From Verrucomicrobiota bacterium (GTDB taxonomy: Bacteria; Verrucomicrobiota; Verrucomicrobiia; Limisphaerales; JADLHS01), in the NCBI GenBank assembly GCA_025350905.1, contig JANXWY010000136.1, forward strand, positions 1 to 32,083: DNA of 32,083 nucleotides. Reading direction: 5' to 3'. Below the pieces are notes generated by a model. That model made no database searches. It was given only the letters and a program-made list of their open reading frames with translations, and was not told where the DNA came from. Positions within the stretch are counted from its first letter, which is position 1. Each line of letters begins with the position of its first letter. Both the position numbers and the translations under genes were made by a program. This document shows, piece after piece, positions 1 to 28,232 of the stretch.

Positions 1-215
1 GTTTTGAAAGCGTCGGCGGGATAGGCAACGAAAGTAATGGAGCTGATCTGCGCCCCGAACAGGGAGACGCCGGCTACCCAGCCGGGATAGGAGCGGTTGC
101 CGACAAAATAATCCTCGGTCGTTTTGACCCGCCGCGAGAAGAGCCAACCCACCACCACCATCGCGGCGAAGTAAAGGCCGATGACCAGCAGGTCGAGCCA
201 GCGCAACGAACTCAT
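1..215 (-). CDS. Sodium:solute symporter family protein, N-terminal part (cut by window edge)
   Basis: Only the first 71 codons are present; the gene runs off the left edge. The visible protein starts MSSLRWLDLLVIGLYFAAMV, a first membrane helix near residues 6-25. A short basic turn (SRRVKTTEDYFVGNRS) and a second hydrophobic stretch with GAQISSITFVAYPADAF follow. The helix, then 'TxEDYFVGNR', then 'SSITF' near residue 60 is the usual N-terminal pattern of SSS-family sodium:solute symporters, which import sugars, sialic acids or other organic acids with sodium. The ATG overlaps the TGA of the upstream gene by 4 bases (ATGA), so the two are probably translationally coupled. The substrate cannot be read from this fragment. 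Sugar acids are an inference from the sialidase-like and KdsB genes in the same unit. Confidence 0.8.
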   Translation of the reverse strand, partial: MSSLRWLDLLVIGLYFAAMVVVGWLFSRRVKTTEDYFVGNRSYPGWVAGVSLFGAQISSITFVAYPADAFK

Positions 216-1429
216 CGATCGGGTCTCATTTCGCTGGCACGCAGCGCTTGCAGCATTCGCTCACGGTTTAGTGGTTTTACCTCGCGCACAATCTTATCAC
301 GCATCGCTTTGCCTGGCTCCGTTTGCTGGGGATACGAGAGAAATTGCAAATCGAGGCCCAGCGCCCCCGCGCATTTCCAGGCCAGCAGCGGCCAGATGCT
401 GCCCAAGTCGCCAATCAAGGGCAGGCTGCCTTCGTGGCGCGCAAAGCCGGACATCTCCATGCGAAACGGCACCTTGAAGACTTTGGTTTTGGGCAGCCCA
501 TCCGCGATGGCCTGCTGCACCGCGCCGGCGCCGCGTTCAATTTCCCAAACGTGTTCCAGCGCCGGATCGAGATCAATGCGGATGAGGGTCTTGCCCGCCA
601 GGCTGTAACTGTAATGGCCCTGCCACGCGGACCACAAACCGTGTCCGGTATAGGTTTCAAAGGGCCCGTCATGGATCTCCTGGGTCAACGCGACGCCGGA
701 TTCAATGATCACGTCCGCCGTGGCGAGCAAATGCGCCAGCCGACTGGCGCGCTCGGTGAGCGTGAGACTGTCGCCAATGCACAAGCCCACCGCGCCGCCC
801 CCCACGAGCTGAGGAATCGTGACCAAGACGGGCAGGCCGCGTCGGGCGCCGATGCCGATCATGGTGCGTTCATCCGCGCCCAGTCCGGCCACCGCTTCAA
901 ACGATCGGCCATGTTCGCGCGCCAAGGTGAGAATTTCCTGGGCGAAATGTTCCAACCACAAACCCATGGGATAACCGAGGTTGCCGGCGGCCTTGATGAT
1001 CGTTTTGCCGGGCAAGCGCTTCAACTTCTCGATCAAGATCCAATCAATCGGAGTATGGTGGCCAATGGCCCGGATCGCAGCGTCCTCCATCAGGGTCAAT
1101 TCAAACTCGCCACCGCGCGGCAGGATGGCGGCGGGCAGTTCCAAGGATTCGCTGGGGCAACGCTTTACCAGGTCGAGCGTGCCGCCCATTTCGTGGGAGA
1201 CCACGGCTGAACTGGTGGTCACCCCGTCCACCAGGCCGGCCCGCATCAGCTCCGCGATCAAAGTGGTGACGCCTTCATGGATGTTCGGCCCGCTGCCGGT
1301 GATCACCACCACCTTGCCGCCGCGTTGCTTGGCGGCTACAATGTGGCCGACGGCTTCCTCGAAGCGTGTCTGCGTCGCAGCCGGGAGCTCGTCGAACAAG
1401 GATTGCAGGAGCAAGTCGTCGATGATCAT
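212..1429 (-). CDS. Uncharacterised protein, deoxyhypusine-synthase-like / TIGR00300-like fold
   Basis: A 405-residue soluble protein with no signal peptide or membrane helix. I do not recognise it firmly. Near residues 38-85 it has GGKVVVITGSGPNIHEG, then 'LIAELMRAGLVDGVTTSSA' and 'VVSHEMGG'. A Rossmann-like strand and glycine turn followed by '-VD-hhTs-A--H-h-' recalls the NAD-binding domain of deoxyhypusine synthase and of TIGR00300 (LOR/SDH-type) proteins. The similarity is judged by eye and is distant. Later conserved-looking stretches are GLGADERTMIGIGARRGLPV and LVGGGAVGLCIGDSLT. It lies 23 bases after kdsB and overlaps the symporter start by 4 bases, so it is in the middle of the sugar-acid unit. 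A role in handling an imported sugar acid is possible but unsupported by sequence. Confidence 0.75.
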   Translation of the reverse strand: MIIDDLLLQSLFDELPAATQTRFEEAVGHIVAAKQRGGKVVVITGSGPNIHEGVTTLIAELMRAGLVDGVTTSSAVVSHEMGGTLDLVKRCPSESLELPAAILPRGGEFELTLMEDAAIRAIGHHTPIDWILIEKLKRLPGKTIIKAAGNLGYPMGLWLEHFAQEILTLAREHGRSFEAVAGLGADERTMIGIGARRGLPVLVTIPQLVGGGAVGLCIGDSLTLTERASRLAHLLATADVIIESGVALTQEIHDGPFETYTGHGLWSAWQGHYSYSLAGKTLIRIDLDPALEHVWEIERGAGAVQQAIADGLPKTKVFKVPFRMEMSGFARHEGSLPLIGDLGSIWPLLAWKCAGALGLDLQFLSYPQQTEPGKAMRDKIVREVKPLNRERMLQALRASEMRPDR

Positions 1430-1452
1430 TCGTTGAATTCTGGGTTGCGGGT

Positions 1453-2229
1453 TTAGGTTAGCCCCCGTTCGTGCAGCATCGCTTCCGCGCGAACCACATC
1501 CTCCGCTGTGTCGACACTGAAGCCCGTGAAGGCATGGTCTTGGGCGCGGGTCTCCACGACGCGAAGTTTGTAACCGTGTTCCAACACCCGGAGCTGTTCG
1601 AGCGATTCAATCTGCTCGAGCGCGGTCGGCGCCAGGCGGGCCAGGGTGAGCAGGAATTCGCGGCGATAAACGTAAAGCCCCACATGTTCGAACACCGGGT
1701 GGGGCAATTCCTGTCGCGGATAGGGGATGAGGGAGCGCGAAAAATAGAGCGCGTTGCCGGCGCGGTCCACCACGACTTTCACCACGGCGGGGTTGGCGAA
1801 ATCCTCCCGCCGGGCGATGGGATGCATGAGGGTCGCCATCGGCAGCGTGGGGTCCTCCAACAGCGGTTGCAACGCTTCCGCGATCATCTCCGCATCCAGA
1901 AACGGTTGGTCACCTTGGAGGTTGACCACGATGGCCGCCTCGAGCTTCGTCACGGCTTCGGCCAGTCGGTCCGTGCCACTGGGGTGATGCGGCGAAGTCA
2001 TGATCACCCTACCACCCACGGCTTCCACGGTCCGGGCAATGCGTTCATCATCCGTCGCGACCCACACGGAGTCGAGGCAGGGTGCGAGCTGGCAGCGTTC
2101 GAGGACCCGTTGAATCATCGGCTTGCCCGCAATCAGCTCCAGCGCTTTGCCGGGGAGTCGCGTCGAGCCGTAGCGGGCCGGGATGATGCCGACGACGGTC
2201 GGCCGCGTTGCGTGGGTGGTTTGGGTCAT
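1453..2229 (-). CDS. kdsB: 3-deoxy-manno-octulosonate cytidylyltransferase (CMP-Kdo synthetase)
   Basis: KdsB activates the eight-carbon sugar acid Kdo with CTP to give CMP-Kdo, the donor used in lipopolysaccharide inner-core assembly in the cytoplasm. The 258-residue protein has the family's N-terminal nucleotide-binding loop IIPARYGSTRLPGKAL near residues 14-29. It also has WVATDDERI, SGTDRLAEA, the metal and nucleotide motif NLQGDQPF, and a C-terminal GFSVDTAEDVVRAEAM. The length is close to the usual ~250. The reading frame stays open upstream, but the start MTQTTHATRPT at 2229 fits the family and leaves 16 bases to the upstream gene; a longer start would run into that gene. It is odd that the gene sits with a sialidase-like protein and a symporter rather than with other Kdo or lipid A genes. 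Confidence 0.93.
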   Translation of the reverse strand: MTQTTHATRPTVVGIIPARYGSTRLPGKALELIAGKPMIQRVLERCQLAPCLDSVWVATDDERIARTVEAVGGRVIMTSPHHPSGTDRLAEAVTKLEAAIVVNLQGDQPFLDAEMIAEALQPLLEDPTLPMATLMHPIARREDFANPAVVKVVVDRAGNALYFSRSLIPYPRQELPHPVFEHVGLYVYRREFLLTLARLAPTALEQIESLEQLRVLEHGYKLRVVETRAQDHAFTGFSVDTAEDVVRAEAMLHERGLT

Positions 2230-2245
2230 GGATGGTTGAAGACGT

Positions 2246-2908
2246 TCAGTCAACGTTGCGGACAATCTCCAAGAACTCAAATTCAGCGCGGAAGCCATCG
2301 CCTTTGGGGCAGCACGCGTAGAGCCCGCAAGACAGCGGCGCAACGTTCGCAATGGGCAAATGCGTCAGCCGCAGGAGGCGCCAGTCAATAGATTCCATTG
2401 CGGAAAATTCGAGGGTGAAGTCCTGCGCCGCTTTGCGAATTCGCAGGCCAATCTCGCGGGCCGCCCGTGGAAAGTCTTGCACGGACCAGTCCGAAAAGCC
2501 CCGATTGGTAACCACCGCGCCAAGCTTGGCTGGGCCGCTGGGTTCATATTCAACCGAAGTTTTGATCCAACAGTTGGCATCGACCCGGATCATCAGGCCC
2601 GCCTGATCATACTGATCCACGGGCTGGTAGCGGACTTTGGTGGTGATCGTAAAATCACCGGAAATTTCGGCAAAGAGAAAGTGACCACTGTCGGCTCGGA
2701 AACCGTAGTGCGTTTGCTGCCAGAAGTCGGTCCGGGCGGCTGGTTGCACGACTAATGCGGGCCGCGACGGGTCCACCGCCCAGGTCGGTGGCGGATTTAA
2801 CCAACGCAGACGCGGATCCAGTGCGGACTGGATGAAACGTTCATCGAGGATGACGCCCGGCTTTTTGGTTAGTTGCACCTGAGAGTCACGCGTTACTGGG
2901 GCAAGCAT
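2246..2908 (-). CDS. DUF1349 domain protein (concanavalin A-like lectin/glucanase fold)
   Basis: A 220-residue protein of the DUF1349 family, whose members fold as concanavalin A-like beta-sandwiches. The molecular role of the family is unclear. Typical pieces are DFWQQTHYGFRADSGHFLF, then 'ISGDFTITTKVRYQPVDQYD', then 'QAGLMIRVD', 'WIKTSVEYE' and 'GAVVTNRGFSDWS'. The pattern F-h-x-V-x-x-x-P-x-x-x-Y-D-Q-A-G-L is the family's best known motif. There is no obvious signal peptide. The chosen ATG at 2908 overlaps the end of the upstream sialidase-like gene by 16 bases, so the two are probably coupled, and kdsB follows after 16 bases. A sugar-binding role beside the sialidase-like protein is inference. 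Confidence 0.85.
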   Translation of the reverse strand: MLAPVTRDSQVQLTKKPGVILDERFIQSALDPRLRWLNPPPTWAVDPSRPALVVQPAARTDFWQQTHYGFRADSGHFLFAEISGDFTITTKVRYQPVDQYDQAGLMIRVDANCWIKTSVEYEPSGPAKLGAVVTNRGFSDWSVQDFPRAAREIGLRIRKAAQDFTLEFSAMESIDWRLLRLTHLPIANVAPLSCGLYACCPKGDGFRAEFEFLEIVRNVD

Positions 2909-4083
2909 TCCCCGGCATCCCAGATGGTCGCGCCGATGAAGCGTTCGCGATTTTCATTCTCGTTGTAATAGTAAATCGTCACCAGCTTGCCATCGGGTCG
3001 CCGCAGGGTCCGCGGGTAGCCCAGGTCCCAACAGCCCCCATCGTCGCGGAGCACGATTTCTCGGCTCCAGGTTTTTCCTTGGTCAGCGCTCAAGCGCGCG
3101 CGGATGCCGAACGGTTTATAGCGGTGCCCGTAAGTTATGGCCAATCGGCCGTCCCGCAATTGCGTCAGGCTGGGGGGATTTTCCACCTTGAGAACGGGAC
3201 GACTCAGGAATTTCCAACTCTTCCCATCATCATGGGAGACGTAAAGGTCATTGCGCTGGTTGTAACGAATCGCGGTGAGAATAGTTCCGTCCTGCAAACG
3301 CACCGACGATGGCATGATGGCGTAATCCTTTTTCCATTTTGGCTCCGGGCAAATGAAGGACACAAAATCCCAGGACTTCGCGCCGTCACGGGTGCGCACG
3401 CAAATGACGCGCCCTTCCAATCGGTTCCTTTTTGCCGCCGTCAAGAACAGTGTTAGGTCATGGGGACCGTTGATCAGGTAATCCGTGCGGGCGGCAATGC
3501 CCGTCTGGCCAAAGTCGGGCAACTTGAATGGTCCGTCCCAATGGTGTCCGCGATCCAGCGAGGTGTAGAAGCGGGACTGGCCGGCGTCCACACTGGTCAT
3601 GCGTGCCGTAAGAATAAAATCCGGGTTGGTGAAATCAATTCCGCCGGGACAATCCGTCAAAGGTTTGCCGCCGGTGCCCGTGGGCACCCCGGCCACCAGC
3701 TCACCTGGTGGGGGTCGGAGGCCTTCAGGTTTTTCGAGGTGCCACGTTTCGCCGCCATCGAGACTGCGGGCCAGGACGTGCTCCGCCGGCCGATCGTAAT
3801 CAATCGCGTGTTCATCCTTGCTGATCCGATGGAAATAGCCGACCTCGAAACCGACCAGCATTTCGTTGCCCCACGACCACGCGCCATGGTTGGCCGGCCA
3901 ACCGGCGAAACGGCCGTCCTCTCGAAATACCGTCACCTGTTTGATCAACTGGGGCACCCTTTGCGCCGTCGCCGAGCCGGCATTCATAACCAGTAGGGCG
4001 CAAGTTAGACAAATGAAACCCAGGTCGTAAATCCGGAGGCTCCACCGGGAACCAGGAAATAACCTTGTATTGATTGGTCGCAT
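2893..4083 (-). CDS. Secreted sialidase-like protein with BNR/Asp-box repeats
   Basis: A 396-residue protein of the sialidase (neuraminidase) superfamily, predicted to be exported. The start MRPINTRLFPGS at 4083 gives a signal peptide with hydrophobic core LGFICLTCALLVM and a cleavage site near NAGSATA-QRVP (around residue 41). The frame is open further upstream to 4245, but that stretch has no signal-like character and would begin inside the loop of a strong hairpin (4229-4262), so the shorter start is preferred. Asp-box motifs are SLDGGETW, SLDRGHHW, SHDDGKSWKF and SADQGKTW, one per propeller blade. A classical FRIP arginine motif is not visible, so true sialidase activity is uncertain; the protein could act on another acidic glycan. 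It is the first gene of the five-gene unit down to the symporter. Confidence 0.85.
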   Translation of the reverse strand: MRPINTRLFPGSRWSLRIYDLGFICLTCALLVMNAGSATAQRVPQLIKQVTVFREDGRFAGWPANHGAWSWGNEMLVGFEVGYFHRISKDEHAIDYDRPAEHVLARSLDGGETWHLEKPEGLRPPPGELVAGVPTGTGGKPLTDCPGGIDFTNPDFILTARMTSVDAGQSRFYTSLDRGHHWDGPFKLPDFGQTGIAARTDYLINGPHDLTLFLTAAKRNRLEGRVICVRTRDGAKSWDFVSFICPEPKWKKDYAIMPSSVRLQDGTILTAIRYNQRNDLYVSHDDGKSWKFLSRPVLKVENPPSLTQLRDGRLAITYGHRYKPFGIRARLSADQGKTWSREIVLRDDGGCWDLGYPRTLRRPDGKLVTIYYYNENENRERFIGATIWDAGECLPQ

Positions 4084-4228
4084 TTGGGCCGGCAGCGTGA
4101 ATTTGTCGGCGACGAAATGCAACTTGATTTTATTTCTGAATGAAGAGTTGGCGATGATGCCGGCCGGCATGCGGATGCCTTCGCGGACCGCCCAGGACAT
4201 CGGTACGTCCCCATCGGCACAAAACCGG

Positions 4229-4262
4229 GATGGCTCTCGGCACAACTTTTCCGAGAGCCATC
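4229..4262 (-). terminator. Hairpin terminator after the CBM9-like gene
   Basis: A perfect 12-bp stem (GATGGCTCTCGG / CCGAGAGCCATC) surrounds a 10-base loop at 4241-4250. On the minus strand it lies 77 bases after the stop of the CBM9-like gene and is followed by CCGGTTTTG, a short T-run. This fits an intrinsic terminator that separates that gene from the sialidase-like operon. The T-run is modest. Confidence 0.7.
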
Positions 4263-4338
4263 AAACCAGGGCCGGGGGCAGAGCGACCTTTCGGCGGGTG
4301 CCTAAGAGGCGACTAGCCGGCTAATCGCACGGTTTGCT

Positions 4339-5268
4339 TTAGTCTTCCCCTTTGAACGTAATCGTTCCGTGTGGCCATTGCGCGAAAAACCAACGCGTCA
4401 CGCCTTGGGCTTGGGCTTTGGCGTCCGACCAACTCGGCAGGAAATTATTCGGGTCGGTGGTGATTTGACCCCATTCGAACGCCCACTGCTCGCCTGGCTT
4501 CGGCGCGAACGGGTGAAAGAGGGTGGACGGGGCGGCCCACGGCGCGCTGTCGGGCGCATTGAATTCTTCCCAGGCAATTCGCATCTCGAACACACAGCCT
4601 TTGGGGCCGGCATGCTGGGCGATTTGAATTCCCGGATGATCACAATCACGATAGTTGTAGTTGGGCGGGCAGGAATCGTTTACCGACCAATTGCCTTCGT
4701 TGCCAAAAATGTATCCCGTATGGGCTTCGAGAAAGAGTCCCATCACGTAATCGCCCGTTCGGACCGGGTTGCGGCGGGCAAACCCCTGGTCGATGTGCCA
4801 GGCAATTTGATAACCATCCGCCCGACACGGCTGGCACCAGTCCGGGTCGGTGCTGTCCATCACCACCGCACTCGGCTTGGGATTAAGGTAAAGGTTCACC
4901 GTGTCCTGCGTCCCGTCGTACGGGGGATCCCAGTAATAATCGGTGGGCGACTGCCACCCGGCATAGTCAATTTCTCCCAAAATGTACAAAGCCTCGTCAT
5001 CCCACAGCATCCGGAACCGTAACTGCTGGTTGTCGGGCCGTGGCCACTCCCGCATCAGGGTGAATCCATCGGCGGGGTCACTCGCACCACTCCATTCGTC
5101 GTGTGATTTTTCTCCATCAATGACTGGGGCATGGCTTTTATGCCCCGCCTCCGCATGGATCCGTTGCACAGTGTAATTTCTGCGCCCGGGTTTATCGGCC
5201 CGGGCTGGCGTGGCTGTGAAGGACAGGACTGCGGTCAGGGCCAGTAGGTAGCTATAGGTGTTTTTCAT
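4339..5268 (-). CDS. Secreted CBM9-like carbohydrate-binding protein
   Basis: A 309-residue exported protein. The start at 5268 gives a clear signal peptide, MKNTYSYLLALTAVLSF then TATPARA-DKPG. An in-frame extension to 5424 would bury this signal behind 52 polar residues, so it is rejected. The mature part begins with HAPVIDGEKSHDEWSGAS, then FRMLWDDEALYILGEI, 'DTVNLYLNP' and 'FEMRIAWEEF'. These are the strand signatures of the CBM9 / DOMON-like sugar-binding sandwich found in xylanases and in stand-alone proteins of this kind. No catalytic domain is present. Polysaccharide binding at the cell surface or outside is likely. The 5' leader (5281-5310) is almost free of G on the coding strand and there is no clear Shine-Dalgarno site. 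Confidence 0.85.
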   Translation of the reverse strand: MKNTYSYLLALTAVLSFTATPARADKPGRRNYTVQRIHAEAGHKSHAPVIDGEKSHDEWSGASDPADGFTLMREWPRPDNQQLRFRMLWDDEALYILGEIDYAGWQSPTDYYWDPPYDGTQDTVNLYLNPKPSAVVMDSTDPDWCQPCRADGYQIAWHIDQGFARRNPVRTGDYVMGLFLEAHTGYIFGNEGNWSVNDSCPPNYNYRDCDHPGIQIAQHAGPKGCVFEMRIAWEEFNAPDSAPWAAPSTLFHPFAPKPGEQWAFEWGQITTDPNNFLPSWSDAKAQAQGVTRWFFAQWPHGTITFKGED

Positions 5269-5771
5269 AACCGGTCGTTGTTTTTGGTTGTAGTTGTGGT
5301 TGTTGTTTTCAAGGACTGAGCCCCGTTCGGCGTCCGCCCGTAAATCTGGGTTTAAAAACCTTCGCTGCATTTTGTCGTTCGACAGGTCAGGCAGATGTTT
5401 AATTGCTTTCTGGCTGAATCCCACGCCCTCGTGGCGGAGTGCAGTTTTGAACGGCTGGGTTCAAAATTTTCGTTGCGCGTCAACCCTGTACTACCGGAAA
5501 TTGCAGCCAAGGTTACATCTAGGTTGAAAATTATTGCGGCGAAAACCTGCTGCCTGCGCCCTCAAAAACTAGAGGACGGTCTGAAGTGGTATGCCATCTA
5601 CGCACCCTCAAAGGTGATATGCGGCTAACTTCGTTTGCCTCGCTGAAAGAACCATCAACTCCCGGTGCGAGGTAAGTCGCACCGGGAACCGTGTGAAACG
5701 GCTGGCTAAATGGAGTGCTTCAAGGCTGGGCCAGGTTTGTTGGTCGTCCAAAGGGAACTGGACGCGAAACT
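5269..5771. other. Intergenic region, 503 bases, no supported gene
   Basis: Short open frames on the plus strand (for example 5395-5628) have no recognisable content, no ribosome binding site and no signal. The region holds the A/C-rich leader of the CBM9-like gene at 5281-5310 (minus strand) and a perfect hairpin at 5661-5686. Nothing else stands out. Confidence 0.6.
5661..5686 (-). terminator. Perfect 10-bp hairpin, possible terminator
   Basis: CCCGGTGCGA and TCGCACCGGG form a perfect 10-bp stem around the 6-base loop GGTAAG. It lies about 90 bases after the stop of the minus-strand gene ending at 5772. The minus-strand sequence after it is AGTTGATGGTTCTTTC, which is only mildly T-rich, so it could be a terminator, an mRNA 3'-end stabiliser, or an inverted-repeat protein site. 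Confidence 0.45.
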
Positions 5772-6317
5772 TTAGCGACCGTTTTTTTGTTCAGCGCCTC
5801 TAAATTGCAGGACCAGGTTTAAATCTGAATACAATGTCACCCACCGGCTCGGCACGGGGCCGGCGTTCACATCGGCACCCGGCGGAGGGTTGGGGCCGGG
5901 AGTGCCATACCAACCGGTGCCGGGCTTGTGCTTATTATAGCCGACTCGGAAATCGCCACTGTACAAAGGGCCGTAATCGTCGTGTTCGATCCAGACAATA
6001 TACAGGGCAGCATGCGTCGGGTCCGGCGCCTTTGGATCGGTGAATCGCCAACCCTGGTTGGGGATCTGGTTCGGGTACACTTCATACAGGTTATCCACCC
6101 CCAGCAGGTTTATGAGCGCGCCATAGTCCGAGGCGGGATTATTGACGATCGGTCCGATGTAGAGGTTATAATTCTCCGAGTTAAAGACTTCGACCGTGGG
6201 CGAGCCACCTTCTGACCCGTCGATGCGAACGACGGTGGGGCCCGCCATGAGTCGGCCCGGCAGCAACATGACCAGCGCGAGGGCGCTCGACCGAAGAATC
6301 CAATGGGTTATTTTCAT
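5772..6317 (-). CDS. Secreted protein of an unrecognised family (short paralogue)
   Basis: A 181-residue exported protein: MKITHWILRSSALALVMLLP then GRLMAG, with likely cleavage near residue 26. A Shine-Dalgarno-like AGAGGA lies 9 bases before the ATG. I do not recognise a named domain. Its mature part matches the C-terminal half of the next gene upstream (6579-7643) throughout: both have GP(I/L)VNNPA, GALI, L(L/F)GVD, RF(T/V)DP, AL-IVW(I/V)-HD, a glycine-rich GD(F/L)-(V/I)G(Y/F)N, and end with V(L/I)(Q/K)F(R/K)G. The two are therefore tandem paralogues with a shared beta-rich domain of about 130-140 residues. The aromatic and acidic content suggests an extracellular binding domain; that is inference. 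Confidence 0.8.
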   Translation of the reverse strand: MKITHWILRSSALALVMLLPGRLMAGPTVVRIDGSEGGSPTVEVFNSENYNLYIGPIVNNPASDYGALINLLGVDNLYEVYPNQIPNQGWRFTDPKAPDPTHAALYIVWIEHDDYGPLYSGDFRVGYNKHKPGTGWYGTPGPNPPPGADVNAGPVPSRWVTLYSDLNLVLQFRGAEQKNGR

Positions 6318-6578: not shown

Positions 6579-7643
6579 TCAGTTTTCCGGGCCTTTGAAC
6601 TTGATCACCAAGGTGGAGCTCGAATGGATCGTTTTCCATTTGGACGATACGGGGCCAAGGTTTTCGTCGCCGTGAATCTCTGGATTACTGTAGTGAACGC
6701 CCGGGAAGGCGCTATTAAACCCGATTTGGAGATCCCCGCCAAAGAAAGGCCCGTCGTAGTCGTGCTGAACCCAAACGATGTCCAGCGCATTGTTAAACGC
6801 GTTGGCCCCCAAACTCGGGTCCACAAAGCGGCCGCCCCAATCCGCCATGGCGCCGTAGGTGTCCACTCCAAAAAGCGTGATGAGCGCACCATCCTCCACG
6901 GCCGGGTTGTTCACTAGCGGCCCGGTGTTGATGTCGTACCCATTCGGTGCTCCCTTCACCTGAACCACGGGCGGGCCCACCGCCCGGTCATTGATGCTGA
7001 CGACAATCCGCCCGCCTTCGTCCTCGATTTCGACGAACTTGATGGTCCCTGAGCTGGCGAACGAAATGTTTCCCTGCCCGTCACCCTGTCCGGAACCTTG
7101 TAATTGCCCAGTCGCACCACGAAATGCTCCCGTGCCACCAGCGATCTGCTGCGTTACCTGAAAGCCGCTTGGGCCGTCAAGCCCAGTGAAGGTAGTGTAG
7201 AGTCGATCGTTGTTCGCGGTAGCAATAATTCTGGTCCCACTGAGCGGCGTCAACCAAGCACCGGTACCAACGTCATAGAAAGTATTTCCGCTATGGACAT
7301 AAATCAGCGTCTGAGCCGCACCCCCGGGTTGGATCGTCCCAGTGCCATAAAAAAGCTGATCCGAAGTACCGTCGCCATTGTCGGTGTAACTGATGGCCTG
7401 GGCTTGAAAAGACTCTTGAAAACGCACCCGGTCTTCGGCCGCGGCCCAATGGACGGCTCCCGCCAAGGTAGCGAGGCAGGCGAGCGGGAGGACCAGCAGC
7501 CGTGGTATCGCTCTCCCAAGCGAGCGGCAGTGGGTGAGGTGCTTCCGGTTTGTTCGGCTGCTCATTTGTAACTGCGTCTTGACTGCCTCACCGTCCGATT
7601 GGCGGTCGCGGGTGGCGAGTGATGCGTCGCACTCTTTGTTCAT
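6579..7643 (-). CDS. Secreted two-domain protein: allene-oxide-cyclase-like barrel plus family domain
   Basis: A 354-residue exported protein. The start at 7643 is supported by AAAGGA 7 bases upstream, but it leaves a long polar n-region before the hydrophobic core LLVLPLACLATLAG (around residues 49-62). A start at residue 27 (MSSRTNRKH) would give a more normal signal peptide. After cleavage near AVHWAAA-EDRV, residues ~75-215 form a glycine-rich repeat of strands ending in GGTGAFRGATGQLQGSG. That resembles the allene-oxide-cyclase-like or dirigent-type beta barrel. Residues ~220-354 are homologous to the whole mature protein of the next gene downstream. So this looks like a fusion of a barrel to a domain that also exists alone. 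The function is unknown. Confidence 0.8.
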   Translation of the reverse strand: MNKECDASLATRDRQSDGEAVKTQLQMSSRTNRKHLTHCRSLGRAIPRLLVLPLACLATLAGAVHWAAAEDRVRFQESFQAQAISYTDNGDGTSDQLFYGTGTIQPGGAAQTLIYVHSGNTFYDVGTGAWLTPLSGTRIIATANNDRLYTTFTGLDGPSGFQVTQQIAGGTGAFRGATGQLQGSGQGDGQGNISFASSGTIKFVEIEDEGGRIVVSINDRAVGPPVVQVKGAPNGYDINTGPLVNNPAVEDGALITLFGVDTYGAMADWGGRFVDPSLGANAFNNALDIVWVQHDYDGPFFGGDLQIGFNSAFPGVHYSNPEIHGDENLGPVSSKWKTIHSSSTLVIKFKGPEN

Positions 7644-8052: not shown

Positions 8053-8802
8053 ATGTCTGGCAGCGATCCACAGGAAACGCCGGCGACCCCGGGCCAGCAC
8101 TTCGCCACTACCCATTGGAGCGTGGTGCTGTCAGCGGGACACAGCACGCGGCCAGGCGCGCGCGTGGCTTTGGAGAAGTTGTGTCGCGCTTATTGGTATC
8201 CGCTCTATGCTTTTGTCCGGCGGCAAAACTGCAATCCCCACGACGCCGAAGACCTGACCCAGGCTTTTTTTGCGGCGTTACTCGAAAATCGTGGCCTCCG
8301 CGTGGCCAATCCCGAGCGCGGGCGATTCCGTTCGTTCTTGTTGACGCGGTTGAAAAATTTTCTGTCGGACGAACGCAAAAAACGCCAATCCCAGAAGCGG
8401 GGCGGGGGCCAGATAATTATTTCGCTGGATGCGGAATTTGCGGAGGAGCGGTTTGGCGCGGAACCCGCCACCGACCTGACTCCCGAATTGATGTTCGACC
8501 GGCGCTGGGCGATGACGATCATGGAGCAAACGGTCGGACGGCTGCGGAAGGAGTATCTCGCGGCGGATCGGGCGGAATTATTCGAGGAGTTGCGGCATTT
8601 TCAGCCTGGCGAAAAGGGTGGATGTTCATACGCGGAAGTGGCCGTGAGGTTGGGGTTGTCCGAGAGTGCGGTGAAGTCGGCCATCTGGCGACTCCGCCAA
8701 CGACATCGTGAACTCCTGCGCGAAGAAATCGCCCATACCGTGGCGACGCCTGTCGAAGTGGACGAGGAAATTCGTTACCTGATCTCGATGCTCAGCGGGT
8801 GA
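8053..8802 (+). CDS. RNA polymerase sigma factor, ECF type linked to Ser/Thr kinase
   Basis: A 249-residue ECF sigma factor. The N-terminus GQHFATTHWSVVLSAG is typical of the ECF group found with protein kinases in Planctomycetes and Verrucomicrobia. Region 2 runs over residues ~40-105, with YWYPLYAFVRR, DAEDLTQAFFAALLE and the -10-binding helix FRSFLLTRLKNFLSDERKK. Region 4 covers ~170-225, with YAEVAVRLGLSESAVKSAIW followed by RLRQRHRELL, the -35-binding helix-turn-helix. No anti-sigma factor gene is adjacent. Instead the kinase with WD40 repeats follows after 165 bases on the same strand, so phosphorylation by that kinase may control activity (known for this class in outline, inferred here). 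No promoter of its own could be identified. Confidence 0.92.
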   Translation: MSGSDPQETPATPGQHFATTHWSVVLSAGHSTRPGARVALEKLCRAYWYPLYAFVRRQNCNPHDAEDLTQAFFAALLENRGLRVANPERGRFRSFLLTRLKNFLSDERKKRQSQKRGGGQIIISLDAEFAEERFGAEPATDLTPELMFDRRWAMTIMEQTVGRLRKEYLAADRAELFEELRHFQPGEKGGCSYAEVAVRLGLSESAVKSAIWRLRQRHRELLREEIAHTVATPVEVDEEIRYLISMLSG

Positions 8803-8967: not shown

Positions 8968-11900
8968 GTGGCCGAAGCAAATTATTGCCCAGTCTGCCGG
9001 ACGGTGCTGCCTGCCAGCGCCCCCGATGGCTTTTGCCCGATCTGCGAGTTTCGTCGTGCGCTGGACGCACCGGCTGAGACCGGTGGCAGTCGACGTGAGG
9101 AGGTTCATTCTGAAAAATCCGAAACCCGAAACCCGAAATCCGAAATTGAGGCGGCTTCCCCCTCCTGGTCCGACTTAACAAAAATCCTTTACTTCGGCGA
9201 CTACGAGTTGCTGGCAGAGATTGCGCGTGGCGGCATGGGTACGGTCTTCAAAGCGCGACAGGTCAAGTTGAACCGGGTAGTTGCGATCAAACTCATCAGC
9301 GCTGGCGTGTTGGCATCCCACGAACTGGTCAAGCGGTTCAAGGCCGAGGCGGAAGCCGCCGCCGGACTGGATCACCCGAACATCGTTCCCATCCACGAAA
9401 TTGGGGAGCACGACGGGCAACACTTTTTCAGCATGAAGTTCATTGACGGCCGGACGCTGGGAGCAGCCCTTGGCCGCAAACCGATGCCGACGCGGCGCGC
9501 GGCGCTGTTGCTGATCAACGTGGCACGGGCGGTGCATTTCGCGCACCAACGCGGCGTGCTGCATCGCGACCTCAAGCCCAGCAATATTCTGCTCGACGCG
9601 CGAGGCGAGCCGCACCTGACCGATTTTGGCTTGGCCAAGTTCATCCAAAAAGACAGCACGCTCACGCATACCAATGCTGTACTCGGCACGCCGGCTTACA
9701 TGTCGCCGGAGCAGGCCCGTGGGGATACGAAAGCCGTTACCACGGCGGCCGACGTTTACGGCTTGGGCGCGGTGTTGTTTGAAACTCTGACGGGCACTCC
9801 GCCGTTTGCCGGGGGCACGTCACTGGAAACGATTCGGCAGGTGTTGGACGAAGAGCCGCGTCGTCCTTCGGCTTACAATCCCGAGGTGGATCGCGATTTG
9901 GAGACGATCTGCCTGAAATGTTTGGAGAAGGAGCCGGCCCGGCGTTACGGCTCGGCCGAGGCGCTGGCCGAGGACCTGGAGCGGTGGTTGCGGCGCGAGC
10001 CAATCCTGGCCCGGCCCGCGAGCCCGTGGGAAAAGACCGGCAAGTGGGTGAAACGAAAGCCGGCGCTGGCTGGCGCCCTAGCGACCGCTTTGCTGCTCTT
10101 GCTGATCGTGGCCATCGGCGCACCGATTGCGGTCGTGCGCATTAAAATTACCCAGAAGCGGAACGAGCAAAATCTCTACGCCCTGGGTGTGCGGTTGGCC
10201 AGCCAGGCGTTGGAACAACATGACTTGGTCGGCGCGCGGTTGCGGCTTCAAAGCATCGTGGCCTCACCCAAACAAAGAGCCATGCGGGGTTGGGAATGGC
10301 GTTATTTGATGAGCCAGTGCCATAGCGACGAACTCGCGCCGATCGGGCGCCATGAGGCCGGGATATCCGCAGTCACTTTCTCTCCGGACGACCAAACCAT
10401 CATCGCGATCGGCGAGGATGGGTTCGTAAAGTTGTGGGATGCCGTGAGTCGGACGGAAGTCGCGGGCTGGCAAGCACACACAAACCTGCTCAGGAACAAG
10501 CGGGACATGACGGGTCACAGTCTCGCCCTTTCACCGGATGGACTCACGCTGGCGACCGGCGGCGCCGATGGGCAGATCCATCTGTGGAATCTCGCTTCGC
10601 GGCAGAGGGTGGCGCGCGTAGGTTCCCTTCACCACTGGGTCAACGGGCTGGCGTTTTCGCGGGACGGTCGGATGCTGGCCGGCGCTTGCCAAAACGAAGT
10701 GGCCTTATGGAGCCTAACGAATCGTCCGCCGACCCAAGTGGTTCAATGGGCGGCGGAAATTCCTTTGGCGATTGGCGTGACGTTTTCGGCCGATGGCAAA
10801 CACCTGATCGTCGGCGGACTTTTGGATTCCCTTCACTGCTGGGACATCTCGAACCCCGAAATGCCTCTCAAATTCGACTGCTTCAAAGGGAGCTGCGCGC
10901 CGTCAGCCGTCTCGCCCGACGGAAAATGGCTGGTCGCCTCCGCGCCGGACGATCCGTCGGTTCGCTTGTGGAATCTCGAGACGGGGCAACCGTCACCGGC
11001 ACTGGGCGCGCGAGGCATCGACTATCTTTGCTTCGCGTTCTCTCCCGACAGCCGGGTGCTGGCATCTGGCTTGCGCAGTGGCGAAATCATTTTGTGGGAC
11101 ACGAGCGGCGAGCGCGAGCCCGTGACGCTCGTAGGCCATGAAGAGTTAGTCATCAGTCTGGCCTTCGCGCATAATGGAAAGAGGCTCGTTTCGGCCAGTG
11201 CCGACAAAACGGTGCGCCTCTGGGACGCTTCCATGCAGCCGCACAGCGAGCCGGTGATGCAGCACGGAACTGCGGCGTTTGGCGTTCGCTTCTCGCCGGA
11301 TTCGCGGTATCTCGCCAGCAGCGCGAAGAGTCCCGTGTCCACGACGAATCAATTGAATCCCTTCACGCTCAAGCTGTGGGCGACTAATGGAAACGCCTGG
11401 ACTGAAGTCGCGGTCGCAGCCAATGGCGGGGATTCCTTACAAAGCGCTATCAGCTTCTCGCCGGACGGAAAAGCGCTGGGAGTTGACGGCTCGGGGTCGC
11501 GATTCTACACGATGCCGGACCTCCAACTCATCACCAACGTTGCCACCGGAAGCCTCCCCGCTTTCTCTGATGACGGGCGCACGCTCGTGCATGCTGTCAT
11601 CGAGCGAGAGCGTTACCGCATTGTCCGCCGCGACTCGCCCACGGCGCCGGAAATCGTCATCGGTGAGCAACCGGCCCGCCCCACGGTGCTGGCGGTTTCA
11701 CCGGACGGCAGTCTCGCCGCCAGTTCCAGCGAAGAATCCGGCGGTGCTATCGACTTGTGGCAGGTACGGCAGCGCCACCATCTTGCCACCCTCAAAGGTC
11801 ATGAATATTGGGTTGTTTCCCTGACGTTCTCGCCGGATGGGAAAACACTGGCCAGCGCGAGTTGGGACGGGAAACTCGGTCTCTGGGATGTCGCGAGCCG

Positions 11901-12195
11901 GCAAAAGCTTGCGCTCTTGCGCGGGCACAACGGGGAGGTTTCTTGCGCCGCGTTTTCGCCGGACGGCCGCACGATCGTGACGAGCGGACGCGACGCGACT
12001 GTGCGCTTCTGGAATGTGGAGACGCGGCAGGAGATGTTCGTCCTGCGCGGCCGCAAGCTGAACGTCAATTCCGTGGCCTTTTCGCCAGACGGCCAATGGC
12101 TGGCCGCCGCTTGCCAAAACGGCGACATCCGCCTGTGGCGCGCTCCCGCGCTTGAGGAATTTCAAGTGAACAGCAGGCCGAGTCCAGGCAAATAG
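8968..12195 (+). CDS. Membrane Ser/Thr protein kinase with zinc ribbon and 14 WD40 blades
   Basis: A 1075-residue Hanks-type kinase with a GTG start at 8968. Residues 7-26 hold a small zinc-ribbon-like motif, CPVC...CPIC. The kinase domain is ~75-340: glycine loop [18 protein letters not shown] lysine, catalytic [20 protein letters not shown], and activation end [14 protein letters not shown] membrane helix follows at ~367-390 ([19 protein letters not shown]). Outside it lie about fourteen WD40 units from ~450 to 1065, such as [11 protein letters not shown]...KLWD and [20 protein letters not shown]. Fourteen equals two seven-bladed propellers. The kinase would be cytoplasmic and the propellers outside, so it could sense a signal and phosphorylate the upstream ECF sigma factor (inference). 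A four-unit heptamer repeat lies in the linker before the kinase domain. Confidence 0.93.
9119..9146 (+). repeat. Four tandem 7-base units CCGAAA(C/T) inside the kinase gene
   Basis: Units CCGAAAC, CCGAAAC, CCGAAAT and CCGAAAT follow without gaps. The 28 bases encode part of the linker [14 protein letters not shown] between the zinc ribbon and the kinase domain. The linker is low in complexity and not a conserved part of the kinase fold, so the repeat looks like an insertion tolerated because it keeps the frame open. Confidence 0.8.
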
Positions 12196-25871: not shown

Positions 25872-28232
25872 TCAAGCCTCGGCGTTCGTCGCGGCGGGCA
25901 GTCGCCATGGAACTTCAAAATTGCGGACCGGTTTTTGAAATCCCTTCGGCGTGGTCGGCGCTTGCTCAATGCAGGTGGCGGCGAGTGTGGGGTCGTCGCG
26001 CAGGATTTGCTGATACGTGGTCTCCCCAATGATGATGCGGCCGTGACCGGAAATGGATTCGAGCCGGCTCGCCAGGTTTACTTCGCGGCCAAACACAGTG
26101 TAATTGAGAATGTGCGCATCCGAACCCATCAACCCCACCGTGACGATGCCGGAATTGATCCCCGTCCCCAAAGCCAGGATCGGCAGCAAGGGTTTCACAG
26201 CGAGACCGGCGGCGAGCCGGGCCGGGTTCTCCAATTCGTTAGCCTGGTTTTTGGCCGCCCGCTGCCGATTCAACTCGTGGATGGCGCGTTGGGCTTCCAT
26301 CGCCGCCCGCACGCAGGTCAGTGCGTGGTGGCGGTGTGGGGTGGGCGCGCCCCAAAAGGCCATGACGCAGTCGCCGATGTATTTGTCCAGGGTGCCATCG
26401 TGTTTCTTGACCATGTCAGCCACGGTCGCGAGATAGGCATTCACCGTGTGTAAAGTTTCGCGGGCCAATTCGTTGAAGGCGGCTTCGCCGTCCGCGGCGG
26501 TGAGCTTCCGGGCCCGGATGGTTTCGGCCGCTCGTTCCTGGGCCGTGTCGGTGAGCTCGGTAAAGCCGCGGACATCGGCGAACAGCACCGTGACTTCACA
26601 GCGCGCGCCGCCGAGCGAAAGGCGCTCCCGCCCCAGCAATTCCTTGGCGATGTTTGGCGAAACCACCCGGGAGAAGATGGATTTCACCCGCCGCTGTTCC
26701 CGTTGCTCGAACACCGCGCGATAGGTGACCAACAGGACGTAATTAACCAGGATCGCGCCCACGACCGGAAGCACCAGCGGCAACCAAAAACGGTTGTGCA
26801 CGAAAAGAAAAACACAAACTCCCGCATAACCGGCCGTCAACAAAAGCACACCCAGAAGTCCGGGGAGCACCTGCAGTTGCCAGGACAAGCGCGCGGCCAA
26901 AATCCCCAGCAGCACAATCAGCCCAAGTTCCCAACCCAGGGAGGTCGGACGGATGAACCGGTCGGTGATGACGGCGTTGGCCACATTCCAATGCTTGCTC
27001 ACGAGCAAGGTGCTCTTCTCAAGGGGGGTGGCGCCGTGGTCGGTCAGATCGTTGCCCGTGGCGCTGGAGCCGATCACCACCAGCTTGTCTTTCCAAAAGT
27101 TGGTTTGGCCGCCTCCCTGGCCGTCCAAGCGGAGGCGGTCCAGCCGGAGGAGATTTTCAAACGCATCCGCGGTCAGGCGCGGATCCGTGGGAGGGAGCTC
27201 CCAATTGATGTAAAAGAAACCATTGGCATCCACGGGCAACGTTCGGACCACATTGTTCGGTCCCCGGAGCACGATCTTGCCCCGCGGGAGGTCGACCTCG
27301 GCCGCCGCGAGATCAAGGTTCAAGGTGCGCGCCGCGAGCACGATCCCCATATGCCAGACGCGGTCCACCGTAAAGGCTTTTGAACGCTGTGCGGTGCCGG
27401 GCGGAGGTGGGTCGCTGGTGAAAACGGCCAGGTCGAAATTATTCTGCGCGTCCACGGGCACCTTGATGTCGTCCAGGCCATTGGTGCGCAGGAGGACGAC
27501 GAAGCCCGGCTCCAGGCGCACGCGGCTAAGGTTCACGCCAAAGGTTTTATCGGCCGCCACCTGCAGAAACGCCGGATGCCAGCGACGATAATCGTGAAAG
27601 GCCCGCGCGCGCCGCAGCACACCATCCGAGTCCGCTTCGGCGGCAATATCACCGAGCGACCACGCATTGGTGGCAAAGAGGGTCAGCGGTAAAACTCCGC
27701 GTTCGGCCGCGAGGATCGCCATCCCCGAGCGCTTGAGTTGCCACGCGAAGTAATCATCGGACTCCACCATGGTGTACGTCTGGCCGTGGTCTTCAAACGT
27801 GGTAGCGGTTTGTTCCGGGTGGAGTTGCTCCAGAAATTTCGGAACGTCTGGCCATTCCGCTGCGGCTACGGGCACGGGGGACTGATCATAGCGTGGTCCG
27901 GAAAAAAGTACGTCGAAGGCGATGGCTTGCGCGCCCTGCGCGGAAAGCTCTCGCAACACCCGGCCATAAATGTGTCGCGGCCAGTAAAGCCCAAACCGAA
28001 AGCCGAGGGAGCCGTCATTGAGCGCGGCGATGCTGTCATCGCCGATAGCAACGAAACCAAGATTCGTAGCGACGGGCTGGGGAAAGCGAGCCGCGATGCG
28101 TGCCCGCCCGTCATAGGTCATGCGCTCCAGCCGGTCAACAGAATCGAACTGGCTGAGGCGGGCCAGACAAACCAGCACGATGACGCCGACCGCGATAATT
28201 ACGGGCGGGTGTTTATGGGGCCGGTATTTCAC
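25872..28232 (-). CDS. CHASE2-domain class III adenylate/guanylate cyclase
   Basis: A 786-residue membrane protein with a GTG start at 28232. Residues 10-25 (PVIIAVGVIVLVCLARLS) are the first membrane helix. A periplasmic CHASE2 sensor domain follows (~30-400), with FVAIGDDSIAAL, GAQAIAFDVLFSGPR and FWKDKLVVIGSSATGNDL, then three close helices (~430-510). The class III cyclase domain (~540-740) has VTVLFADVRGFTELTD and KYIGDCVMAFWGAP, each with a metal-binding aspartate, and YTVFGREVNLASRLESISG. It should make cAMP or cGMP in response to an outside signal; the ligand is unknown. The gene follows a FecR protein gene, with a strong hairpin terminator ending about 10 bases before the GTG. No Shine-Dalgarno site is visible. 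Confidence 0.92.
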   Translation of the reverse strand: MKYRPHKHPPVIIAVGVIVLVCLARLSQFDSVDRLERMTYDGRARIAARFPQPVATNLGFVAIGDDSIAALNDGSLGFRFGLYWPRHIYGRVLRELSAQGAQAIAFDVLFSGPRYDQSPVPVAAAEWPDVPKFLEQLHPEQTATTFEDHGQTYTMVESDDYFAWQLKRSGMAILAAERGVLPLTLFATNAWSLGDIAAEADSDGVLRRARAFHDYRRWHPAFLQVAADKTFGVNLSRVRLEPGFVVLLRTNGLDDIKVPVDAQNNFDLAVFTSDPPPPGTAQRSKAFTVDRVWHMGIVLAARTLNLDLAAAEVDLPRGKIVLRGPNNVVRTLPVDANGFFYINWELPPTDPRLTADAFENLLRLDRLRLDGQGGGQTNFWKDKLVVIGSSATGNDLTDHGATPLEKSTLLVSKHWNVANAVITDRFIRPTSLGWELGLIVLLGILAARLSWQLQVLPGLLGVLLLTAGYAGVCVFLFVHNRFWLPLVLPVVGAILVNYVLLVTYRAVFEQREQRRVKSIFSRVVSPNIAKELLGRERLSLGGARCEVTVLFADVRGFTELTDTAQERAAETIRARKLTAADGEAAFNELARETLHTVNAYLATVADMVKKHDGTLDKYIGDCVMAFWGAPTPHRHHALTCVRAAMEAQRAIHELNRQRAAKNQANELENPARLAAGLAVKPLLPILALGTGINSGIVTVGLMGSDAHILNYTVFGREVNLASRLESISGHGRIIIGETTYQQILRDDPTLAATCIEQAPTTPKGFQKPVRNFEVPWRLPAATNAEA

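Follow-up and report, generated by a model that had tools for sequence, protein, structure and literature searches.

A kdsB partner protein with a predicted deoxyhypusine-synthase fold in a possible acquisition operon for Kdo-type sugar acids

The stretch of DNA analysed here (the window) is contig JANXWY010000136.1 of a draft Verrucomicrobiota genome (assembly GCA_025350905.1; 6.27 Mb, 95.5% complete) with a length of 32,083 nucleotides. At its beginning lie five genes, all on the minus strand, including a kdsB, whose product belongs to the synthetases coupling 3-deoxy-D-manno-octulosonic acid (Kdo) to cytidine monophosphate (CMP), and a neighbouring gene for a protein of 405 amino acids (aa), which is the main subject of this study (Table 1). 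An earlier note on this DNA had described the five genes as tightly packed, and this is borne out: the sialidase-like and DUF1349 genes overlap by 16 bases, gaps of 16 and 23 bases separate DUF1349 from kdsB and kdsB from the 405-aa gene, respectively, and the latter overlaps the SSS symporter gene by 4 bases. As the window represents the entire contig, the symporter gene is incomplete. Promoter-like (2) and terminator-like (6) sites within positions 1-5000 are unremarkable compared with shuffled sequences (means of 1.4 and 6.2) and, hence, the operon call is based on gene packing, strand and recurrence.

Table 1 Genes of the five-gene block at the beginning of the window
Feature	Position	Strand	Family evidence
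BNR/Asp-box (sialidase-like) protein, 396 aa	4083-2893	-	BNR_2 58 bits (cut-off 31.4)
DUF1349 protein, 220 aa	2908-2246	-	PF07081 190 bits (cut-off 32.4)
KdsB-type CMP-ulosonate synthetase, 258 aa	2229-1453	-	CTP_transf_3 202 bits (cut-off 22.6)
405-aa protein, predicted deoxyhypusine-synthase fold, kdsB partner	1429-212	-	no Pfam family at E 0.01
SSS symporter, 5' part, 71 aa visible	215-1	-	SSF 19.4 bits on a 70-aa fragment (below cut-off 22.8)

The 405-aa protein of the window stays below every Pfam cut-off, while a sequence search of solved structures gave no meaningful match to it and a plasmid collection no relative. Scanning of genome contigs, in turn, yielded relatives encoded in 305 stretches, the best-scoring 80 of which were kept. 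Among the 60 relatives in alignment A2, which originate from records labelled with several phyla, identity to the window protein is 54-72%; because part of its sequence is masked, L054 was excluded from this alignment and from structure prediction, and was retained in alignment A1. The AlphaFold2 model of the protein (pLDDT 91.2, pTM 0.92) has deoxyhypusine synthases and ornithine cyclodeaminases such as ArgZ/AgrE as its top listed fold matches (e.g., 7cmc with Z 16.8 and 3.9 Å over 254 residues; best Foldseek E 6.3e-7). With these enzymes it shares the predicted fold (Z 16-17) and a weak N-terminal sequence similarity, whereas identity amounts to only 10-18% and the 405-aa gene instead adjoins Kdo genes. 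Likewise, the protein scores far below the cut-offs for deoxyhypusine synthase (TIGR00321, 15.5 vs 304 bits) and ornithine cyclodeaminase (TIGR00300, 19.2 vs 411 bits). We regard the 405-aa proteins as an unnamed family, for which a deoxyhypusine-synthase fold is predicted with high confidence. Since an AgrE complex with nicotinamide adenine dinucleotide (NAD) is among the listed fold matches, an enzyme with an NAD-like cofactor appears plausible from the model. TIGR00300 is named a nickel-pincer nucleotide (NPN) enzyme by NCBIfam, and LarC (PF01969) served as marker for the ability to make this cofactor. LarC was found in 69 of 80 draft genomes and 10 of the 11 genomes without it carry the 405-aa gene; hence, NPN seems not to be obligatory for the 405-aa protein, and an obligatory dependence is unsupported by the LarC distribution. 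In the open-licence PubMed Central (PMC) literature, nickel-pincer nucleotide and ornithine cyclodeaminase were not found together.

The KdsB of the window clearly exceeds the curated cut-off of TIGR00466 (220.7 vs 155.2 bits) and has 1gq9 (7.4e-62), which we take to be the Escherichia coli capsule enzyme KpsU, as nearest solved chain. As the earlier note had considered possible, it is not the only KdsB of its genome, since a housekeeping copy with 48% identity is encoded on another contig (C390) next to a gene reading as pyrG. The refuting condition named in that note, which started from a sole kdsB, hence does not apply. Two KdsB matches above cut-off occur in only four of 38 genomes sampled from the order (the window genome G000 as well as G001, G031 and G036), and the 405-aa gene is present in five (G000, G001, G006, G026, G036), including three of the four with two KdsBs (Fisher p 0.0045). 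In a KdsB tree of 57 out of 80 frames (leaving out duplicate loci or sequences, a short fragment and a fused frame), the 43 sequences linked to a 405-aa gene separate from housekeeping KdsBs with 2 label changes (mean of 12.8 after shuffling of labels, 0/500 as low), with modest support of 86/69 for the dividing branch. The single unlinked sequence on the linked side, L073_4622, lies 1.6 kb from a 405-aa gene. Moreover, linked KdsBs co-vary with their 405-aa partners (40 pairs, Mantel r 0.83, 0/2000 permutations as high). Comparison of 43 linked with 12 housekeeping sequences, from which L053_5246 and L073_4622 were additionally excluded, revealed that linked KdsBs retain residues conserved in the housekeeping enzymes, such as R19, K28, D107, R165, H182, E211 and Q212, and that six positions separate both groups at the thresholds used. 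A loop of the genome's own housekeeping KdsB is absent from the linked KdsBs as well as from 1gq9, which aligns gap-free there. In addition, a linked-branch enzyme is the sole KdsB found in Synergistaceae genome G040, which possesses kdsA, kdsC and waaA, and in Hydrogenedentota genome G048, which has waaA and no kdsA above cut-off. A preference of the window KdsB for another ulosonic acid, as suggested in the earlier note, is thus unsupported, though conceivable. Linked KdsBs resemble the known KdsB/KpsU CMP-Kdo synthetases in family score and conserved residues, but differ by forming a separate tree group and by their new partner gene.

This partnership is found in several bacterial groups. 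In 47 of the 80 loci, a same-strand kdsB lies no more than about 0.65 kb from the 405-aa gene (30 upstream, 17 downstream). The 405-aa gene, listed without further comment in the earlier note, is the most constant partner of kdsB in these loci. Three genomic settings can be distinguished. The first, seen under the labels Verrucomicrobia, Hydrogenedentota and Planctomycetota, combines the pair with SSS symporters and often with sialidase-like or GntR genes. Within 5 kb of 35 Hydrogenedentota loci (45 listed, repeats removed; 284 kb in total, many flanks falling short of 5 kb), kdsB was found 27 times, SSS genes 16, sialidase-like genes 11 and GntR genes 9 times, compared with 0, 0, 1 and 0 places, respectively, in controls from Hydrogenedentota genomes (40 stretches, 406 kb), these being contig starts of 1.8-15 kb chosen by contig number. 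Because close relatives of these genes served as queries, more distant SSS and sialidase genes were missed in both sets. The occurrence of kdsB with symporter and sialidase-like genes, noticed before in the window alone, accordingly recurs well above control DNA. The second setting comprises five genomes with the pair (G049, G050, G051, G056, G057) in which no waaA match and no kdsA above cut-off were obtained. Here, a DHDPS-family gene lies beside the pair in L052, L084 and L088 (by Pfam) and in L080 (by sequence clustering), TRAP genes are present near the pair in L052 and L080, and a YhcH-family gene in L088, while the L064 neighbourhood is not clearly readable; IclR-type regulators near the pair were assigned by reading of the sequence only. 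In the third setting, Synergistaceae, the pair is embedded in a lipid A/Kdo operon that also contains kdsA, kdsD and waaA, the order being kdsA-kdsD-waaA-405-aa gene-kdsB in L061, L066, L079, L082 and L091. Finally, locus L093 unites kdsB and the 405-aa gene with sialidase-like, aldolase (DHDPS-family, by Pfam) and symporter genes. The open reading frame caller used for neighbourhoods was greedy, so that some antisense frames were picked in GC-rich DNA and the 405-aa gene was missed in some loci. Counts over loci, furthermore, ignore relatedness, and many loci stem from metagenome bins that may contain stray contigs. A sign of such a contig is given by L068 and L070, which have equal length, contig number and match position, yet are labelled Phycisphaerales and Synergistales, respectively.

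The truncated symporter of the window was approached through its relatives. The 527-aa symporter of L014, from a nearby genome, matches the 71 residues seen in the window with 87% identity and scores above the cut-off of the SSS model (208.8 vs 184 bits); its nearest solved chain is the sialic acid transporter SiaT (5nv9; 7.5e-68, next 1.4e-34). SiaT is also the best solved match for the symporters of L010 and L093 (2.6e-64 for the latter); as the L093 protein is a looser relative, this ranking is not specific. More informative are the binding residues. The SiaT report describes a carboxylate clamp of S60, T63 and R135, with R135 pairing with the carboxylate of sialic acid (PMC5931594). All 14 symporters from linked loci carry S60, T or S63, and R135, compared with R135 in 3/9 control symporters, which were drawn from 40 listed plasmid symporters (196 records). 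The arginine is absent from PutP, PanF and four other controls, and the three controls with it are found beside a DHDPS-family gene, beside an N-acetylmannosamine-6-phosphate epimerase gene, or are 46% identical to SiaT. The uptake of a sugar acid proposed in the earlier note is thus backed by retention of the carboxylate-binding arginine in symporters of such loci. The SiaT residues contacting the tail of N-acetylneuraminic acid (Neu5Ac), in turn, are largely missing from linked symporters (Q82 0/14, N247 3/14, Q250 0/14), 11 of which have R78, W247 and D or E250 in common; positions 78 and 82 in helix 2 are alignment-dependent, a second alignment pairing them one residue off. Judged from these residues, the altered pocket fits a sugar acid other than Neu5Ac. 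As a side observation, a Rufibacter plasmid (L188) encodes an R135 symporter next to genes for an L-fucose isomerase, a DHDPS-family protein and a GH127 protein, which may constitute a further sugar-acid cluster.

The sialidase-like protein contains the Asp-box/BNR propeller sequence of GH33 sialidases, enzymes whose catalytic residues are an arginine triad, Tyr/Glu and Asp. Its N-terminus resembles a signal peptide by eye, its nearest solved chain is the uncharacterised 5hx0 (2.6e-13), and sialidases 8ub5 and 8um0 give weak local alignments (3.3e-4 and 3.6e-4). Release of a sugar acid by this protein is therefore an unproven assignment from sequence. L033 and L054 have DUF1349 genes with 42% identity to that of the window in the vicinity of the pair.

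As a rule, Kdo is described as being synthesised de novo via kdsA and used for lipopolysaccharide (LPS) or capsule. Among 50 Hydrogenedentota genomes (drafts of unstated completeness, including G046, which was chosen for having the 405-aa gene), 33 carry the 405-aa gene and 13 a kdsA above cut-off. The 405-aa gene is present in 28 of the 37 genomes without such a kdsA and in 5 of the 13 with it (Fisher p 0.021, or 0.008 if a split match in G095 is counted as present). Judging from length and score, the weaker KdsA matches that lie in frames of about 340 aa or longer are probably 3-deoxy-D-arabino-heptulosonate 7-phosphate (DAHP) synthases. As a correlation, this is suggestive of a loss of kdsA tied to the operon in Hydrogenedentota, and the combination of a linked KdsB as sole KdsB with waaA and no kdsA above cut-off in G048, again a correlation in draft genomes, suggests scavenging.

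Known sialic-acid scavenging operons are composed of the symporter SiaT, a lyase and a CMP-sialate synthetase. The present loci share with them an SSS/SiaT-type importer with carboxylate-binding arginine (in the relatives), a CMP-sugar synthetase and, in some relatives, aldolase and YhcH genes. They differ in that the synthetase is of KdsB type, an enzyme of deoxyhypusine fold is added, and the linked symporters lack Q82 and Q250 and mostly N247. Taking these data together, we tentatively propose, at somewhat below even confidence, that the five-gene block is an acquisition operon for a Kdo-type ulosonic acid, Kdo itself being the likeliest substrate. The symporter, judging from homology and the binding residues of its relatives, would import the sugar acid, and the linked-branch KdsB, by family and conserved residues, would couple it to CMP. 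The 405-aa enzyme would act on this sugar, either preceding or following its activation, probably in an NAD-dependent reaction, with both cofactor and reaction being predictions. The sialidase-like and DUF1349 proteins may act outside the cytoplasm on a glycan bearing the sugar. Where waaA is present, the product may be channelled into LPS; where waaA is absent, the pair mostly occurs with an aldolase gene and may serve either uptake together with breakdown or a different glycan. A more far-reaching version, which we consider rather doubtful, is that the 405-aa family represents an undescribed enzyme of Kdo metabolism that, together with its own KdsB and SiaT-like importer, lets kdsA-less bacteria use scavenged Kdo, or a relative of Kdo, to build or decorate their surface glycans.

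Several observations weigh against an acquisition operon. In 25 of the 80 loci, flanks are adequate and no kdsB lies beside the 405-aa gene (8 further loci are unjudgeable), and a synthetase for CMP-sugars would be out of place in an operon for breakdown. The clamp positions 60 and 63 are also common in control symporters (S60 8/9, T or S63 6/9), and the visible fragment in the window spans just these two, with R135 outside. When used as query, the sialidase-like protein of the window retrieved from these loci only a single relative (L058, 27% identity); the sialidase-like gene recurring near the pair belongs to another subfamily, and none was observed beside the pair in the relative G036 (locus L010). 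The kdsA association in Hydrogenedentota, moreover, is uncorrected for relatedness. Within the family of the window genome, kdsA above cut-off is also absent from genomes without the 405-aa gene (G002, G004, G007, G008, G011), and a tie between kdsA loss and the operon is not indicated for this family.

Other explanations account for parts of the same data. The 405-aa enzyme might act on Kdo or CMP-Kdo to yield a modified ulosonic acid, with the linked KdsB being specific for, or tolerant of, the product. This would suit the near-exclusive tree group of linked KdsBs, their co-variation with the 405-aa protein, and the position of the pair inside the Synergistaceae lipid A/Kdo operon despite the presence of kdsA there and of KdsC in 6 of 7 genomes. 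Nevertheless, we judge it unlikely, as the positions separating linked from housekeeping KdsBs are few and the conserved core is common to both, while shared descent would also yield the co-variation. Less probable still is a purely catabolic operon, whose function would be degradation of the imported sugar acid, made ready for an aldolase by KdsB and its partner. The DHDPS-family genes beside the pair in L052, L080, L084, L088 and L093 speak for this, as do the TRAP and YhcH-family genes and the IclR-type regulators mentioned above. The five-gene block, however, contains no aldolase gene, two aldolase queries gave no hit up to 5 kb from any of the 35 Hydrogenedentota loci, the Synergistaceae copy sits among biosynthetic genes, and we know of no breakdown route that makes use of CMP activation.

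A replacement of KdsC, the Kdo-8-phosphate phosphatase, by the 405-aa protein was considered since no KdsC match at E 1e-5 was obtained in the window genome, in G006 and G036, or in Hydrogenedentota G046, G047 and G048. Yet, KdsC above cut-off is present in the aforementioned 6 of 7 Synergistaceae and in the single Bacteroidaceae genome searched (G045), all carrying the 405-aa gene, and the fold matches listed for the protein comprise deoxyhypusine synthases and ornithine cyclodeaminases, leaving such a role highly improbable.

Outside the block, the next upstream gene on the same strand (4339-5424) follows at a distance of 255 bases and encodes a protein with a CBM9-like match below cut-off (21.3 vs 23.4 bits). 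Further along, tandem paralogues on the minus strand (5772-6317 and 6579-7643) show no Pfam family at E 0.01 and share a domain with 40% identity over 153 residues. A plus-strand gene (8968-12195) coding for a protein kinase domain followed by WD40 repeats adjoins the gene of an extracytoplasmic function (ECF)-type sigma factor (8053-8802), and a minus-strand gene (25872-28232) for a CHASE2 sensor with adenylate/guanylate cyclase domain adjoins a FecR-domain gene.

Among the matches listed in the open-licence PMC literature, neither the pair of kdsB and 405-aa gene nor a Kdo uptake operon was announced. If the proposed acquisition operon proves true, a conserved cassette for uptake and activation would mean that some bacteria recycle Kdo, and it would explain the presence of kdsB in genomes with neither a detected waaA nor a kdsA above cut-off. 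It would also provide a testable role for a protein family whose member in the window reaches no Pfam cut-off. The recurrence of the pair across several bacterial groups, a few of which apparently lack the outer coat normally served by kdsB, points to an unstudied scavenging or processing of Kdo-like sugar acids.

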